From assembly GCF_032818155.1 (NCBI RefSeq), contig NZ_CP102589.1:3520001-3584000 (forward strand): a stretch of 64,000 bases of DNA. The letters are read 5' to 3'. Positions 45,534-51,579 of this stretch are shown piece after piece. Under the pieces are notes generated by a model. The model worked only from the letters and a program-made list of their open reading frames with translations, ran no database searches and was not told the origin of the DNA. Numbering within the stretch: the stretch's first letter is position 1; each line of letters begins with the position of its first letter. This DNA comes from Niallia taxi (GTDB taxonomy: Bacteria; Bacillota; Bacilli; Bacillales; Cytobacillaceae). Both the position numbers and the translations under genes were made by a program.

Positions 45534-45941
45534 ACGGAATTTTTTAATAAACTATTTAAATCCCAGCAACCGCTACTTCAAAGGTATAAGCTGAAAGGGG
45601 GATAAAACGACAAAAAGATGTTTTATTTCCAAGGAAATGACACAGAAATTAACAAAAATCCGTAAAATATTGACAATAGGTTCAAGGATACCACTTAGGA
45701 TTTCCCAATACGACCTTATATTTAATATTCACCAAAAGACTATTCCAATGAAACTTCCATTATTAATATACTTATTCTCCAACTAAGTTTTAAGTCCCCT
45801 TCTGTTTAATTCCAATTCCTTCCTATAAAAAAGATTATGGCACACTTATCACCCAATCCTATCCTTCTTCATAATCTGTAATAAATCCGGTCTTAGACAT
45901 TTGCCTAAGCTTTATGTCGGATTAGAAGGGAGTCTTCTGCA
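45534..45941 (+). other. Intergenic region upstream of the split permease
   Basis: AT-rich, 408 bp. TTGACA occurs at 45670-45675 but no good -10 lies 17 bp downstream. A purine-rich AGAAGGGAG at 45924-45932 is the ribosome site of the permease. No open frame, repeat or hairpin of note. Confidence 0.5.
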
Positions 45942-46364
45942 ATGGGTATAGAGCTAACAGCACTCCATTGGATATACGTTTTGTTCATCCTCTTTATTAT
46001 AGGCTTTATGATTATGAGAAGAGACACTACCATCGTATGTATTGTCGGGATTTTTTTGTTGGCACTTACAGCCACAGGATCATTGAGCGGTTCTATCAGC
46101 ACCATATTCAATAGTTTTATTTATGCAATAACAGAATTGCTGCCAACGATTGTAGTCATCTCCATCATTGTTGCTATGAGTAAAATTCTAACAAAAACCG
46201 GGATTAATGATGTCATGATATCCCCTTTTGCAAAATGGATTAGGTCCCCAAGTTTAGCATATTGGGTCATTGGTTTATTAATGATGATCATTTCCTTTTT
46301 CTTCTGGCCATCACCAGCAGTTGCATTGATTGGCGCGGTCCTTTTGCCAGTAGCAGTCAGGGTC

Positions 46365-46410
46365 GGCCTTCCTGCTATTGCAGTGGCAATGACCTACAAA
46401 GGAATCCATA
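46365..46410. other. Left attachment site (attL)
   Basis: Core CAGTGGCAATG at 46381-46391. To the left is the host half-site (CCTGCTATTG); to the right the element half-site ACCTACAAAGGAATCC. Within the inferred attP the CAAAGGA at 46397-46403 is the inverted partner of TCCTTTG at 50601-50607. Confidence 0.8.
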
Positions 46411-46424
46411 AATCAATTATTTTT

Positions 46425-46456
46425 AATCAAAAAAAAGCCTTTCTATTTAGAAAGCC
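46425..46456 (-). terminator. Probable terminator of the GAF-STAS gene
   Basis: On the minus strand AAGGCTTTCT, loop AAAT and AGAAAGGCTT, imperfect at its base, are followed by TTTTTT. Confidence 0.65.
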
Positions 46457-46477
46457 TTATACTTAAAGCAATAAAAG

Positions 46478-47341
46478 TTAATTTCCCGCTATTTTTTCCA
46501 ATGAAAAACCTATATTTTTTAAAGCTCGCTCGAGATTCGCTTCAATAGCAATGTTTTGAAAATCTATATTTGATTTCATGGCCTTTAAAGCAATTTCAGG
46601 GCTCATTCCAGTTAAAATTGGCTTTACACCAATTAGCCCTAACAGATCGACTATTTTTAATAAATAGCTGCTTACAAGATTATTAATCTTACTAATACCT
46701 GATAAATCGATAATTAAATATTCCAATGAAAGCTGCTGACTTTTCGATAGCGCTAGTAAAATAATGTTCTCTGCTGTTTCTTCCCTTATTAAGCCAATAA
46801 TAGGAAGAATTGCAACACCTTTTGTCAGAGGTACAAACGGTGCAGATAATTGTTGAATCTGCTTATTAGCATTATCTAAATCAAGCACATACGATAACAA
46901 CGATGCCATCGTCTCAAATAAATCAATATGACTGTGATTAAACTGAATATTTTTAGTATCTAATCCACAAAGTGTTCCGTAATTTTCACCATCGCCAGAA
47001 TAAATAGGAATACCAATAAAACAGCCGGTCCCCAAATTTTTTGTTACCTCTAACGACTTCGTTAAATCACTCTGGGTTATATCTGAAATGACGAGAATTT
47101 TTTGCCCGTGATCTACACTTAACTTGCAAAAAGTGTCATTAAATGGTGTCGTTTCCCCTTCCTCCAACAAAACATCCTCTTTATTTAATACTTTCACAAT
47201 TTCATTTGTATTTTTATCATTTTTTGCAATAAAAAGTGTATTAACATCTATAAATTTAGCCATTATTTTAAGGATATTAGAAGCTGCTTCATCAAAGTTT
47301 TTATAAACCTTCAAATTTTTACTAAATTCAAAATTCTCCAT
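46478..47341 (-). CDS. GAF-STAS protein, RsbR/stressosome-like cargo
   Basis: This 287-residue soluble protein is in the element. Residues 1-150 form a GAF domain (FIDVNTLFIAKNDKNTNE, DITQSDLTKSLEVTKNLGTG and FIGIPIYSGDGENYGTLCGLD). Residues 165-280 form a STAS domain ending in a typical LERALKNIGF, with VAILPIIGLIREETAENII and LEYLIIDLSGISKINNLVSSYLLKI. Such architecture is that of RsbR paralogues, which build stressosomes upstream of sigma-B. In STAS domains of this kind Ser or Thr residues in the DLSGI-type loop and one helix later are phosphorylated by RsbT; here DLSGISKI is followed by NNLVSS. ATG 47341 follows TAGGGAGTAGTAA. Why an element carries it is unknown. Confidence 0.85.
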   Translation of the reverse strand: MENFEFSKNLKVYKNFDEAASNILKIMAKFIDVNTLFIAKNDKNTNEIVKVLNKEDVLLEEGETTPFNDTFCKLSVDHGQKILVISDITQSDLTKSLEVTKNLGTGCFIGIPIYSGDGENYGTLCGLDTKNIQFNHSHIDLFETMASLLSYVLDLDNANKQIQQLSAPFVPLTKGVAILPIIGLIREETAENIILLALSKSQQLSLEYLIIDLSGISKINNLVSSYLLKIVDLLGLIGVKPILTGMSPEIALKAMKSNIDFQNIAIEANLERALKNIGFSLEKIAGN

Positions 47342-47445
47342 TTACTACTCCCTATATATTTATATATATTATATTTTAGCTGCTTAACTATTTAAATACC
47401 ACAAGTTTGTTAATCATAATCATTTATTATTTGAAACTCTAAACC

Positions 47446-47498
47446 ATAAAAAACTGCAGCCCAATTGTTAGACACTGTCTAACAATTGGGCTGCAGTT
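47446..47498 (-). terminator. Strong terminator of the element's small-gene operon
   Basis: AACTGCAGCCCAATTGTTAG with GAC and its exact complement form a perfect 22-bp stem with a 3-nt loop (47452-47498). On the minus strand it is followed by TTTTTT. It insulates the GAF-STAS gene from the small genes upstream. Confidence 0.88.
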
Positions 47499-47654
47499 CA
47501 TTAAGAGTGCTTTCCTTGTATTCTTATGTATCGAGAGTAATCTCTTTCCTTTAAAAACTCGTTTTCTTTCAATTAGGGTTAATTTTTTTGTACATATGCC
47601 AAAGCTCGTTCTGAATAGACCTAAATTCTTTAATTCTTGTGTTAACTCAGCTAA

Positions 47655-47780
47655 TCATTCCTTTAGGAGAGGGTCACTCGGATTATTTTCGAGCTGTTTA
47701 TTAATAGATAAACAATCCTTCCTTTTTGTCTCCATTATCTTATTCACTCTCTCAATTTCATATAAAAATACCTGTTTCAA
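47655..47780 (-). CDS. Possible 41-residue small protein in the element
   Basis: A TTG at 47780-47778, 10 nt after GGAGGTAG, opens a 41-codon frame (LKQVFLYEIERVNKIMETKR, acidic/basic helical), ending at TGA 47655. The same frame stays open for a further 45 codons after this TGA (LAELTQELKNLG), so the gene may be a longer one broken by a nonsense mutation, or the extension may be chance. It resembles no family I can name. Doubtful. Confidence 0.35.
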   Translation of the reverse strand: MKQVFLYEIERVNKIMETKRKDCLSINKQLENNPSDPLLKE

Positions 47781-47845
47781 TAAGTGCCTACCTCCGCACA
47801 TGCAGCAGTGATAATATTTATCGCTTGGCTGTAAAAAAGGACTGG

Positions 47846-47995
47846 TTATTTCTCCACACTGTCATCTGACTTATTACTATTTATTTTGTTCAATAGGTCT
47901 GTATATTCTAATTCACATTCAATGCTGCAAAAATACCCATAATGATCTGGTTTATTATTACACCCTTCGTTTAAGCACAATTTTTCGTTACGCAT
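47846..47995 (-). CDS. Small zinc-ribbon-like protein in the element
   Basis: This is a 49-residue protein with four cysteines in the pattern C-x4-C-x10-C-x3-C (KLCLNEGCNNKPDHYGYFCS, then IEC), typical of a treble-clef or MYND-like zinc knuckle, and an acidic C-terminus. I set the start at ATG 47995 because TCGGAGGCC lies 4-10 nt upstream, within the 3' end of the preceding small gene; the open frame extends twelve codons further. Small phage and element proteins of this type are often recombination or regulatory accessory factors; that is inference only. Confidence 0.7.
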   Translation of the reverse strand: MRNEKLCLNEGCNNKPDHYGYFCSIECELEYTDLLNKINSNKSDDSVEK

Positions 47996-48008
47996 AAATG
48001 GCCTCCGA

Positions 48009-48131
48009 TTACGTACTTTTTCGGCCATCATCCTTCTTCTTTGCTTGTTCTTTTGAAAGACTTCGAATGACGCCTGGTAACAGATGTTTATTAACTGCTG
48101 CGGCTAATTTATCTGCAGGAATTTTTATCAT
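48009..48131 (-). CDS. Small basic protein in the element
   Basis: This is a 40-residue protein MIKIPADKLAAAVNKHLLPG followed by VIRSLSKEQAKKKDDG and a short tail. It is predicted helical and strongly basic at the end. ATG 48131 has GAGGAGGCGATC upstream. It is the first gene of a divergently transcribed minus-strand unit, next to the zinc-knuckle gene with 13 bp between. Function unknown; a recombination directionality factor is one possibility to test, since those of serine recombinases are small, diverse and encoded close by. Confidence 0.65.
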   Translation of the reverse strand: MIKIPADKLAAAVNKHLLPGVIRSLSKEQAKKKDDGRKST

Positions 48132-48199
48132 AAGATCGCCTCCTCAAACATTTTATGAGCGACAGTCTGTCTGTTATGTTTTGGAAGTAATCTTAATAA

Positions 48200-48480
48200 A
48201 TAAGTTCGTTACTTTTTGGAAAAAGTAATAAAAGCTGTCATACATTAATGATATTTCTCGTTTCGCGAACTAAAACAAAAAAAGCAACTTATGTACACCA
48301 ATAAAAAGGACTGAAAAACTAGAATTGTAATTTCCGATTGTTATTGCCCCATTAATAAAAATTATTAATTGTTATTTGTCTGGCTTTTTGACCAGCTTTC
48401 CTGTTCAATCGCTATCTTTTATTCGCATATTGCAAACTCAATAACCATTCTACATGTTCTCATTACGCGAACACAAATAT
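48200..48480. promoter_or_regulatory. Divergent promoter/operator region of the element
   Basis: This is a 424-bp gap between the small-gene unit and the XRE gene. GTTTCGCGAAC at 48260-48270 and ATTACGCGAAC at 48461-48471 share an ACGCGAAC/TCGCGAAC core, and a degenerate copy AGTTCGTTAC lies at 48205-48214. These are good candidates for operators of the XRE repressor controlling both directions. An open frame of 64 codons at 48369-48563 has no ribosome site and is not called. Confidence 0.5.
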
Positions 48481-48555
48481 TATATTTCTCTTTTTGTGAA
48501 TTTTCACTACGTTTTTACAAATATAGTCTAATATTAATAAAAAGGCGGGATGCTC

Positions 48556-48966
48556 ATGGGTGAGATAATGGGGAAACGACTACGTTTGCTAAGAGAAAAA
48601 AGTGGTTTATCCCAAAAGTTTGTTGCTGAACAAATTGGAGTGAAAAATAATACTCTTTCTGGTTATGAATCGGGTAATAGAGAGCCTGACTCTGAAACAC
48701 TAACTAAATTAGCTGACTACTATGAGGTATCTACCGATTATCTTCATGGCAGATCCGATAATATAAAAGGTTTAACAGCAGAGAACAATAATTATCATTC
48801 TTTAAATGAAATAGATAAATTAATAAAGCAATATGGTATGGAGCAAATGGGATTCTTTGATATCGAACAATGGAAATTCCTTTCTCCCCAAGATATAAAA
48901 ATCGTCGAAGAACACTTTAAGATGATTGTAAAGCTTGCAAAGGAAAGAAATGCTGAACAAAAATAA
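48556..48966 (+). CDS. XRE-family repressor of the element
   Basis: This roughly 136-residue protein has an N-terminal Cro/CI helix-turn-helix (about 5-62): LRLLREKSGLSQKFVAEQIG, VKNNTLSGYESGNREPDSET, LTKLADYYEVSTDYLHGRSD. The C-terminal half is helical and acidic, without the peptidase domain of LexA-like repressors and without a ImmA-type neighbour. Three ATGs are possible (48550, 48556, 48568); AAGGCGGG is best spaced for 48556. It probably represses the divergent small genes and perhaps the recombinase. Confidence 0.82.
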   Translation: MGEIMGKRLRLLREKSGLSQKFVAEQIGVKNNTLSGYESGNREPDSETLTKLADYYEVSTDYLHGRSDNIKGLTAENNNYHSLNEIDKLIKQYGMEQMGFFDIEQWKFLSPQDIKIVEEHFKMIVKLAKERNAEQK

Positions 48967-49006
48967 AGCACCTTGGAATAATTAGCGTCCAGGTGCCTTT
49001 TTTATT
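48966..49006 (+). terminator. Terminator of the XRE gene
   Basis: AAGCACCTTGG and CCAGGTGCCTT arms, with a 12-nt loop and a T run, directly after the stop codon; the recombinase gene therefore has a separate promoter. Confidence 0.8.
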
Positions 49007-49164
49007 ATTAAAAGCAGATTCCATTCAAATGGAATTTTATTTTTTACAATAAAACAGAACGTACGATCCGAATCATTCCACCTAAATACATAGCCATAAC
49101 GTATTAAGTTCTATCATATATTAGCTTTAACTGTACGAAACTGTGTAAGGGAGGAATGATATTA

Positions 49165-50595
49165 TTGAAGGCAGCATTATATACCCGTGTATCGAAGGAT
49201 GAACAATTTCGAGAAGGCTATAGTATTTCATCCCAAAAAGAGCATTGTATTAATTTCACTAAGTCACAAGGATGGGAAATATACGATATATATGTGGAGG
49301 AAGGCGTTAGCGCAAAAACACTGAATCGCCCAGCCATTCTGCGCTTAATTGCGGATGCAAAAGAGCATAAATTTGAAGTAGTTGTCTTTTATAAGCTTGA
49401 TCGTCTTGTAAGATCTGTAAGAGATTTAGATGATCTTCTTAAGCTTTTTGATGACAAAAATATTGCCATAAGGTCTGTAACAGAGCCATTTGACACCACT
49501 ACAGCCATCGGCCGCTTTTTAATTACATTAGTTGCTGCAATAGCACAATGGGAACGAGAGACAATTTCAGAACGAGTCGTCGTGAACATGACAAAAAAGG
49601 CTTTGTTAGGTGAACGTAACGGTGGAAAACCACCTTTTGGATATGAATATAAAAATGGAGAGCTTACTATTAACAAGGAAGAGGCAAACTTTGTAACAGA
49701 CATATTCAGACTTTATAATAATGGCAAAGGCTTGCGTACAATTGCCTTATACCTTCAGCAATTTGGCCTTAAAAAGGATGCCCGAACACTTGCTAGTATG
49801 CTAGAAAATCCCGTTTATATAGGTAAGCTAAGATGGGGAAATAATTCTAAATTAGAGGTAATTGTTTCAGAAGACATTAAGCATCCGGCTATCATTGATG
49901 AGGAAACCTTCAAACTCGCACAAAGGAACAGACAACAAAGAACCGTTGCAGGAAAAAAAGCCACTTCCCCCTTCCATTTCTCAGGTGTTTTGCGTTGTGC
50001 AAGATGTGGCAGTGCCCTTTCTGGCTACACAAAGAAAGCACGTGGAAGCAAGCATTACATCTGCATCGCCAAAAAAAACCATGGGACTTGCGACCTCCCT
50101 ATGTTTACAGAAAGCACTCTAACTACTGAGTTCTTTAACAGTCTGTCTGCTGATAATCCAGAACGCTTTATGCAATATTCACAAGAAAAGCTAAAAGCTC
50201 ATTCAATAAAACAACCTGATACTTCTCATATAGATTGGCTTAAAAGAGAATTGACCGCCATAAAAACGCGTAAAAAAACATGGCTCAAGTCATTAGGAAA
50301 TCAGGTCATTTCCCAAGAAGAGTACTTAGAAATGACGCAGGAAGATACTAAAAATGAAGCATTACTTTCAGAAGAGCTTAACAGCATAGTAGAGGAAAAT
50401 ATACCATTAGATGATGAATTAATTCTAGCTCTATTAACTAATCTATCTGGCATATGGTTGTCTGCAAGTGATTTTGAAAAGAAAAGCTTTATAAATGACT
50501 TATTTGAAACGATAACAATTGATGTGCCTGCCGACTATAAAAGGGCTCCAGGAAAAACTCCCTCCATACTTATCAAACACTTCAAACTTAAATAA
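49165..50595 (+). CDS. Large serine recombinase
   Basis: This 476-residue site-specific recombinase has an N-terminal resolvase domain with catalytic Ser10 in YTRVSKDEQ and the Arg pair in VVFYKLDRLVRSVRDLDDL. Next come the recombinase domain (about 160-260; NGGKPPFGYEYKNGEL and LENPVYIGKLRWG) and the zinc ribbon CARCGSALSGYT with CIAKKNHGTC, then a coiled-coil region (about 350-410; LKRELTAIKTRKKTW). This is the SpoIVCA/phiC31-like integrase layout. I prefer TTG 49165, 10 nt after GGAGG; the ATG at 49156 is only one base from it. It ends 22 bp before the attR core, the usual position of an integrase gene. Confidence 0.93.
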   Translation: MKAALYTRVSKDEQFREGYSISSQKEHCINFTKSQGWEIYDIYVEEGVSAKTLNRPAILRLIADAKEHKFEVVVFYKLDRLVRSVRDLDDLLKLFDDKNIAIRSVTEPFDTTTAIGRFLITLVAAIAQWERETISERVVVNMTKKALLGERNGGKPPFGYEYKNGELTINKEEANFVTDIFRLYNNGKGLRTIALYLQQFGLKKDARTLASMLENPVYIGKLRWGNNSKLEVIVSEDIKHPAIIDEETFKLAQRNRQQRTVAGKKATSPFHFSGVLRCARCGSALSGYTKKARGSKHYICIAKKNHGTCDLPMFTESTLTTEFFNSLSADNPERFMQYSQEKLKAHSIKQPDTSHIDWLKRELTAIKTRKKTWLKSLGNQVISQEEYLEMTQEDTKNEALLSEELNSIVEENIPLDDELILALLTNLSGIWLSASDFEKKSFINDLFETITIDVPADYKRAPGKTPSILIKHFKLK

Positions 50596-50597
50596 AA

Positions 50598-50640
50598 GTC
50601 TCCTTTGCTGGCTATACCAGTGGCAATGGCAATGAACCTT
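50598..50640. other. Right attachment site (attR)
   Basis: Core CAGTGGCAATG at 50618-50628. To the left is the element half-site TCCTTTGCTGGCTATAC, starting 5 bp after the recombinase stop codon; to the right the host half-site GCAATGAACCTTTTC. Confidence 0.8.
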
Positions 50641-51579
50641 TTCGGTCACGGCATTGCCCTTTCCGGCGACTATGTTATTCAAGCAGCACCGAAACTGACA
50701 GCAGATGCAGCAGGGATTTCCGTTGAATCTGTTATGCAGGCCAGCATACCACTTGTAATTGTTATGGGGGTTGTCACCACACTAACAGCCTTTTATTTAA
50801 TTAAAAGAGATATAAAAAGCGGTAAGCTCACACACACAACAGGTCTAACGAGCACCGACACCTCCATCCTTCCGAAAAAGGAAAATCATTTACTGAGTAA
50901 AAATCAAAAGCGCTTTTTCGCAATTCTAATTCCCATACTCTTTGTGCTAGATGTTGTAGCAATGTATCTATTGAACCTTCAAGGCGGGGATGCAACAGCA
51001 CTAGTTGGCGGAACCTCCATTTTTATCCTTATCCTTATCACACTTGTCAGCTATAAGAACAAAGGCCTCGAAAAAACCACAAGCTACTTAATTGATGGTT
51101 TCCAGTTTGGCTTTAAAGTGTTTGGTCCAGTTATCCCTATTGCAGCATTTTTCTATCTTGGTGATTCTGGATTCACCACCATCGTTGGCGATTATCTTCC
51201 AAAGGCTTCACACGGACTCGTCAATGACCTTGGTGTCGCACTAGCCTCAACTGTTCCACTCACAAAAGAAGTAGGCGCCATCACCTTAACAGCAGTCGGT
51301 GTTATCACAGGCTTGGACGGCTCTGGCTTTTCAGGAATTTCACTTGCTGGCTCCATCGCCGGCCTATTCGCACATGCGATTGGCACAGGGATAAGTACTT
51401 TGACTGCTCTTGGACAGATTGCAGCGATTTGGGTTGGGGGCGGTACACTAGTACCTTGGGCACTAATCCCCGCAGCAGCCATTTGTAATGTTGACCCCTT
51501 TGAGCTTGCCAGACGAAACCTTATTCCTGTTGTCGTCGGCTTAGCTGTTACTACATTTGTAGCGATATTAATAATCTAA
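50620..51579 (+). pseudogene. Integral membrane permease, 3' part (gene interrupted by mobile element)
   Basis: These last 319 codons of the permease begin in frame at the attR core (VAMAMNLFGHGIALSGDYVI) and contain about seven membrane helices, with SFKVFGPVIPIAAFFYLGD-like and TGISTLTALGQIAAIWVGGG segments typical of the family. An ATG-like start exists at 50605 (TTG) but without a ribosome site. After excision it would be continuous with 45942-46382. No internal frameshift or stop has accumulated, indicating that the gene is either recently interrupted or still selected for as a unit. Confidence 0.88.

Follow-up and report, generated by a model that had tools for sequence, protein, structure and literature searches.

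The locus considered here raises the question of whether a gene cut in two by an integrated element has been lost or can still be made whole. It lies in a 64,000-nucleotide stretch of the Niallia taxi genome (contig NZ_CP102589.1, positions 3,520,001 to 3,584,000), which I will call the window (its genome is G000), and consists of a permease gene divided by an element of 4.24 kb. The answer I favor, with a probability of roughly 0.74, is that this is a domesticated gene-intervening element, which its large serine integrase and a candidate factor of 40 residues (orf40) would excise precisely in the sporulating mother cell.

The permease gene is present as two reading frames, neither of which contains a stop codon or a frameshift, and the points at which they are broken are marked by two copies of a short core:

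45942..46382, + strand: 5' half of the permease, codons 1-147 (the frame continues inside the element to 46466)
46381..46391, + strand: attL, the left attachment core, an exact 11-bp match with the right core
46383-46384, + strand: predicted crossover dinucleotide GT, placed at the attP symmetry center
50618..50628, + strand: attR, the right attachment core, an exact 11-bp match with the left core
50620..51579, + strand: 3' half of the permease, codons 148-466 plus stop, delimited by the reading frame and the intact genes of relatives

When the halves are fused at the core, the result is a single in-frame protein of 466 residues. The core itself (CAGTGGCAATG) occurs exactly only twice in the window, where 0.06 copies are expected, and none of 100 shuffled sequences contained two; the copies are 4,237 bp apart. 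The initial annotation had described undamaged halves of one permease that join in frame into 466 residues, a core shared by both junctions, an element of about 4.24 kb lacking phage structural genes, and a large serine recombinase gene ending 22 bp from the right core. All of this was borne out, the integrase frame ending at 50595, 22 bp before the core, and the scanned proteins of the element including none of a phage structural type. In each of the four codon-147 elements examined, the symmetry of attP is greatest when centered on the GT (14 of 26 positions in G000 and in G006, 21 of 26 in G002 and 17 of 26 in G005), so the GT marks the likely crossover. Directly after it, both junctions have G in G000, and both have T in G005, as if the att sites had changed in concert, which may be chance.

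A Pfam search with one intact orthologue of the permease gave no family above the cut-off, and the AlphaFold model has a mean predicted local distance difference test (pLDDT) score of 47.6. In the literature consulted, the name yhfA, to which the initial annotation likened the permease, appears in the yhaA-yhfA-yhgC operon of B. amyloliquefaciens and in one line of a table in a text passage devoted to E. coli and Synechococcus.

The predicted junction can be compared with the gene as it stands in relatives. A match to the right half of the permease was found in 126 of 151 genomes, some of these matches being only paralogues of about 33-46% identity. Within the genus (13 genomes) the gene is uninterrupted in eight (G001, G003, G004, G007-G010 and G012) and split at codon 147 in four (G000, G002, G005 and G006); in the last, G011, all that was seen of the gene is fragments of its 3' part, starting near codon 418 and lying where contigs end. 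All eight congeneric intact genes cross the predicted junction without a gap. The nearest intact protein (P0001, 94% identical) is likewise gapless there and reads LPAIAVAMAMNLFGHG; its nearest counterpart is that of G005 (95% identity over the right half), and no intact allele of the window's own species was present among the genomes examined. Thus the relatives, which the initial annotation had proposed to search, hold single intact genes that fit the junction, not two separate genes or a mismatched joint, and the same element in the same gene was found in G006 and G005. A possible further interruption in G057, from another genus, turned out to be a frameshift near codon 145 with no insertion.

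Three Niallia species (G000, G006 and G005) have the small element at one and the same codon, and its synonymous divergence equals that of its surroundings. The pooled proportion of synonymous differences (pS) against G006 is 0.205 (0.172-0.239) in the element and 0.198 (0.172-0.226) in the flanks; against G005 the corresponding values are 0.574 (0.524-0.622) and 0.587 (0.548-0.628), the bootstrap intervals of element and flanks overlapping. This equality is most simply explained if the element was already present in the common ancestor of the three. Over that time, both halves of the permease have been kept under the constraint of an intact gene. The ratio of nonsynonymous to synonymous divergence (dN/dS) is 0.009-0.032 for the left half against G002, G006 and G005 and 0.015-0.068 for the right half; it is 0.020-0.055 among split pairs and 0.022-0.064 among intact pairs, a comparison in which many split-intact pairs are saturated and yield no value.

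The fourth split gene of the genus belongs to G002, which is nearer to G000 than G006 is (synonymous divergence, dS, of 0.094 vs. 0.238). It has neither the small element nor the gene for the GAF-STAS protein that the small element carries. In their place, at the same codon-147 site, stands an element of about 52 kb, recognizable as a prophage by its terminase, portal, major head and tail genes. In the G002 lineage the site must have been emptied and then refilled, or its contents exchanged. In a tree of integrase nucleotide sequences, the G002 prophage branches outside the group formed by the three small elements, with an ultrafast bootstrap of 97, which agrees with this.

Four features of the locus bear on how excision might be brought about and timed:

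45851..45877, + strand: sigma-K-type promoter pattern of the permease, AC-N17-CATAATCT
48009..48131, - strand: orf40, a 40-residue candidate recombination directionality factor, found in 9 of 9 codon-147 elements
48152..48177, - strand: sigma-E-type promoter pattern of orf40, ATAACA-N14-CATAAA, with a SpoIIID-like AGACAGAC within it
49156..50595, + strand: large serine integrase of 479 residues, with resolvase, recombinase and zinc-ribbon domains

The integrase falls in a phage integrase family (PHROG 95), and its assignment to CcrA/B/C or XisF was rejected, the NCBIfam matches lying far below the cut-off. Its identity is 90% to the integrase found at this site in G006, 81% to that of G002 and 78% to that of G005. 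Integrases at least 55% identical to it were found in nine distinct genomes, and in all nine the element lies at codon 147 of the permease gene. The same nine elements, the 52-kb prophage included, encode orf40, which also appears weakly in G234. Over its first 33 codons the ratio of nonsynonymous to synonymous proportions (pN/pS) is 0.14-0.45 in 35 of 36 pairs, several of them saturated at synonymous sites, and the remaining pair (V. arvi and V. arenosi) has no synonymous change. I propose, from these sequence comparisons, that orf40 is the directionality factor of the codon-147 elements.

Upstream of orf40, the sigma-E-type pattern ATA-N17-CATAnA is found in seven of the nine elements, as compared to one of 291 control open reading frames (ORFs) and a mean of 0.04 (maximum 2) in doublet shuffles, and a SpoIIID-like core lies inside the promoter pattern in seven of nine. 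The two remaining upstream regions show AC-N16/17-CATAnnnT, a sigma-K-type pattern present in 2 of the 291 controls. This last pattern is also what precedes the permease itself, in 35 of 37 orthologue regions across genera; in 300 dinucleotide shuffles the mean was 0.81 and the highest count 4, and 1 of 48 control ORFs of the window (at least 150 codons) has it. G002 and G005 stand outside the count of 37, and both show the same block in the upstream alignment. By what I take to be the consensus letters for sigma-K, the pattern fits a promoter of that form. The conserved leader had also suggested a riboswitch ahead of the permease, an idea set aside when no Rfam family reached its gathering score. 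Published sigma-K promoters are described as two blocks with a gap of 14-16 nt (PMC517825).

The window is one instance of something broader. In all, 22 insertions into the permease gene were counted in 20 genomes of at least seven named genera, the two numbers differing because G005 and V. arenosi have been struck at two sites. Nine insertions are at codon 147, 12 at codon 426 and one near codon 163:

Codon 147, Niallia and coded genomes: G000, G006, G005, G002, G170
Codon 147, others: Neobacillus piezotolerans, Viridibacillus arenosi, V. arvi, Anoxybacillus tengchongensis
Codon 426: G005, a second insertion of about 40 kb, a prophage (terminase, portal and major head genes)
Codon 426: Bacillus sp. 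FJAT-29814, G234, a Bacillus metagenome-assembled genome (G011), Cytobacillus purgationiresistens, Neobacillus mesonae
Codon 426: Lysinibacillus sp. KCTC 33748, L. parviboronicapiens (4.9 kb), L. mangiferihumi (9.7 kb)
Codon 426: Bacillus sp. FJAT-49736, V. arenosi, Ureibacillus sinduriensis
Near codon 163: G013, a 7.5-kb element with another serine integrase, its core not clear

Both halves of the gene were seen in five of the nine codon-147 cases (G000, G006, G005, G002 and V. arvi) and one half in four; at codon 426 both parts were seen in 3 of 12 (G005, L. parviboronicapiens and L. mangiferihumi). Of 61 integrase loci, the permease was detected by tblastn in 14, by reading a short contig end in one (L093), and not in the other 46. 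Left out of the count are G074, whose left part ends at the codon-426 site, and the contig-broken G045, G102 and G066.

The codon-426 insertions carry more distant relatives of the integrase (12 genomes) and, in all 12, a different small ORF of 46-69 codons. The box CATAnnnT lies within 110 nt upstream of that ORF in 11 of the 12 (shuffles: mean 2.1, maximum 7). In the lone exception, G234, the N-terminal end of the small ORF resembles orf40, a link between the two families; judged by its sequence, it is apparently a fusion of the two candidate factors.

Some details of individual insertions deserve mention. In G005 the permease gene is broken into three (L035, L036 and L078), by the small element at codon 147 and, at codon 426, by the prophage of about 40 kb, and V. 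arenosi (L094 and L116) has insertions at the same two codons. The V. arvi element (L095:1789-9022) encodes beta-propeller and DUF4183 proteins and the small L104 element ASCH and DUF3231 proteins, a cargo that may be spore-related.

Apart from orf40 and the integrase, the element in the window encodes an ORF of 48 codons and the following:

46478..47341, - strand: GAF-STAS (RsbR/YtvA-like) cargo protein of 287 residues, by Pfam GAF and STAS
47846..48031, - strand: SM61, a small cysteine-containing ORF of 61 codons, overlapping orf40 and found in all three small Niallia elements
48550..48966, + strand: XRE/Cro-type regulator (Pfam HTH_3, 4.1e-17), kept in the three small elements

The GAF-STAS protein occurs at more than 80% identity in 3 of the 13 genomes of the genus, the same three that have the small element, and its dN/dS is 0.07-0.09. 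It resembles the RsbR/YtvA regulators, and relatives at 57-72% identity carry names from many Bacillaceae, so it may be a stress regulator that the element has picked up. One relative at 83% (P0122) is labeled Niallia taxi; as the gene is missing from G002, which is also an N. taxi genome, there may be differences among strains that bear this name. Family searches with SM61 gave no match. The 48-codon ORF (47655-47801) has 76 codons in G006 and no counterpart in G005, and is apparently decaying. A near-perfect inverted repeat at 47453-47498 has no equivalent at the corresponding position of the G006 and G005 elements.

The kind of element is already known. Of the known intervening elements in sporulation genes, almost all are noted to lie in mother-cell genes (PMC6957869), and the targets reported for excisable elements in the literature consulted are few: sigK, spsM, gerE, spoVFB, spoVR and yabG (PMC6957869, PMC10747680). 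The prophage SPbeta in spsM of B. subtilis (SprA/SprB) has, like the Niallia element, a large serine integrase; its tiny factor has an adjacent mother-cell promoter, of the kind predicted for orf40, and its target is transcribed by sigma-K after excision, as is proposed here for the permease; SPbeta-like phages, however, are 131-134 kb in length and the Niallia element 4.2 kb, even if the 52-kb prophage of its sister shares the site (PMC4191935, PMC6957869). SprB has 58 residues, and its mother-cell promoter starts transcription 20 nt from the start codon (PMC4191935). The skin elements in sigK of B. subtilis and C. difficile are likewise vertically kept and phage-derived, and have an integrase and, as is proposed for orf40, a small factor (Skr, CD1234) under sigma-E and, for CD1234, also SpoIIID (PMC5025042, PMC6957869); CD1234 has 72 residues (PMC5025042). 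They differ in that the Niallia target is a permease, not a sigma factor, and one in which different integrases have used two or three distinct att sites. Close in character, too, is gin in gerE of Bacillus cereus ATCC10987, a non-phage gene-intervening element in a mother-cell target, with a serine recombinase, an extra factor (GirX) and a short shared core (9 bp). But gin has 31 genes and three recombinases, as compared to about six ORFs and one recombinase (PMC5595907), and the Niallia target gene and candidate factor are new. The elements vfbin (spoVFB) and yin (yabG) also interrupt sporulation genes, and yin has a candidate factor with a putative SigK promoter; their targets are different, and yin is reported from one strain (PMC10747680).

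This likeness of layout to SPbeta, skin and gin, together with the predominance of mother-cell genes among known targets, suggests the following course of events. Sigma-E, perhaps with SpoIIID, would switch on orf40, which would make the resident integrase recombine attL with attR in place of attP with attB. The element would depart as a circle, restoring the permease frame, and sigma-K would thereafter transcribe the whole gene. Since the mother cell lyses, the element would remain in the genome of the spore and be inherited vertically.

Several observations weigh against this proposal. Excision is a prediction from sequence alone, and a need of the mother cell for the permease is assumed. 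In the integrase amino-acid tree the order of G002 and G005 is undecided (support 56). The nonsynonymous rate of the element is about twice that of the flanks (pN 0.038 vs. 0.015 against G006, 0.102 vs. 0.053 against G005), and dS scatters from gene to gene: XRE has 0.09, as compared to 0.18-0.28 in the flanks (G006). The permease pattern is missing from two regions in the stretch read, L095, which has a CATATTCTA box at another spacing, and L039, where a box lies at the edge of that stretch. The two Viridibacillus elements lack the sigma-E-type pattern at orf40, and what I take to be the full SpoIIID consensus is matched there in just two of the nine elements. Inspected by eye, the region upstream of the integrase gene shows no clear motif for a sporulation sigma factor. 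The patterns are short and were devised after viewing the very sequences they were counted in, which moreover are related to one another; comparison with shuffles and control ORFs lessens this bias without removing it. Finally, SpoIVA is present in 241 of 249 genomes and the permease in none of the eight without it, a comparison without power, the permease being found in only three of nine chosen controls (37-39% identity).

It could be instead that this is an ordinary integrated element, which entered by its integrase and is occasionally lost, the permease simply being off in these strains. The phage family of the integrase, the prophage at the same site and the predicted nature of the excision all agree with such a view. 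I nevertheless consider it unlikely: element and flanks have diverged together across three species, and the halves, with dN/dS like that of intact genes, have not decayed, where a dead gene at a synonymous divergence near 1 would be expected to gather stops and frameshifts.

Purifying selection on both halves might equally mean that they are translated separately and assemble as a split permease, and the right half does have an in-frame start upstream of the core. The break, however, falls at a predicted helix (residues 145-161, in a low-confidence model with pLDDT below 50), G000 and G006 do not share the tail that follows the left half, and no good ribosome site was seen by eye before the right half in the window. 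With the refilled site of G002 and the nearby intact alleles also favoring a joined form, I give this idea very little credence.

Equally improbable is excision only by XRE derepression or stress, the active lysogeny of comK, with no tie to sporulation. In its favor, the XRE gene is divergent from orf40, TTCGCGAA-like motifs are seen by eye near both, and the GAF-STAS protein is of a stress-regulator type. Yet the promoter patterns of the permease and orf40 are both of mother-cell type, and excision in dividing cells would tend to lose an element that has been kept vertically. SprB has a stress promoter as well as a sporulation promoter (PMC4191935), so a stress route may coexist with the sporulation route.

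A recent single insertion, one of two possibilities the initial annotation had raised, is disfavored in this lineage by the equal synonymous divergence of element and flanks across three species and by the intact-gene constraint on the halves, and the other, a skin-like element excised under some condition, has gained from the promoter patterns, orf40 and the recurrent insertions.

Among the papers listed by searches of the open-licence literature, none was seen to report the permease gene as the target of an element, and a search for yhfA with prophage and Bacillus found nothing. As far as I have seen, then, the target is new, and so are the repeated insertions at two or three of its sites, the smallness of the element in Niallia and both of the candidate micro-protein factors. 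A wider proposal seems to me somewhat better than an even bet: that the permease is an unrecognized mother-cell gene, repeatedly colonized by phage-type serine integrases at two att sites (and at a third by a different integrase), that each of two integrase types travels with a micro-protein factor (orf40 or the family of 46-69 residues) under mother-cell control, and that one Niallia element has shrunk to about 4 kb and been co-inherited with the gene as a regulated part resembling an intron, with full prophages still exchanging at the site. With 22 insertions in 20 genomes, the permease would be an unusually recurrent target, through which the attraction of integrases to mother-cell genes could be studied by comparison. 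Both candidate factors, which go with one integrase type each, are directly testable, and pairs of serine integrase and factor are useful as DNA tools. For the bacteria themselves, the finding predicts a role in sporulation for a permease that is so far uncharacterized.

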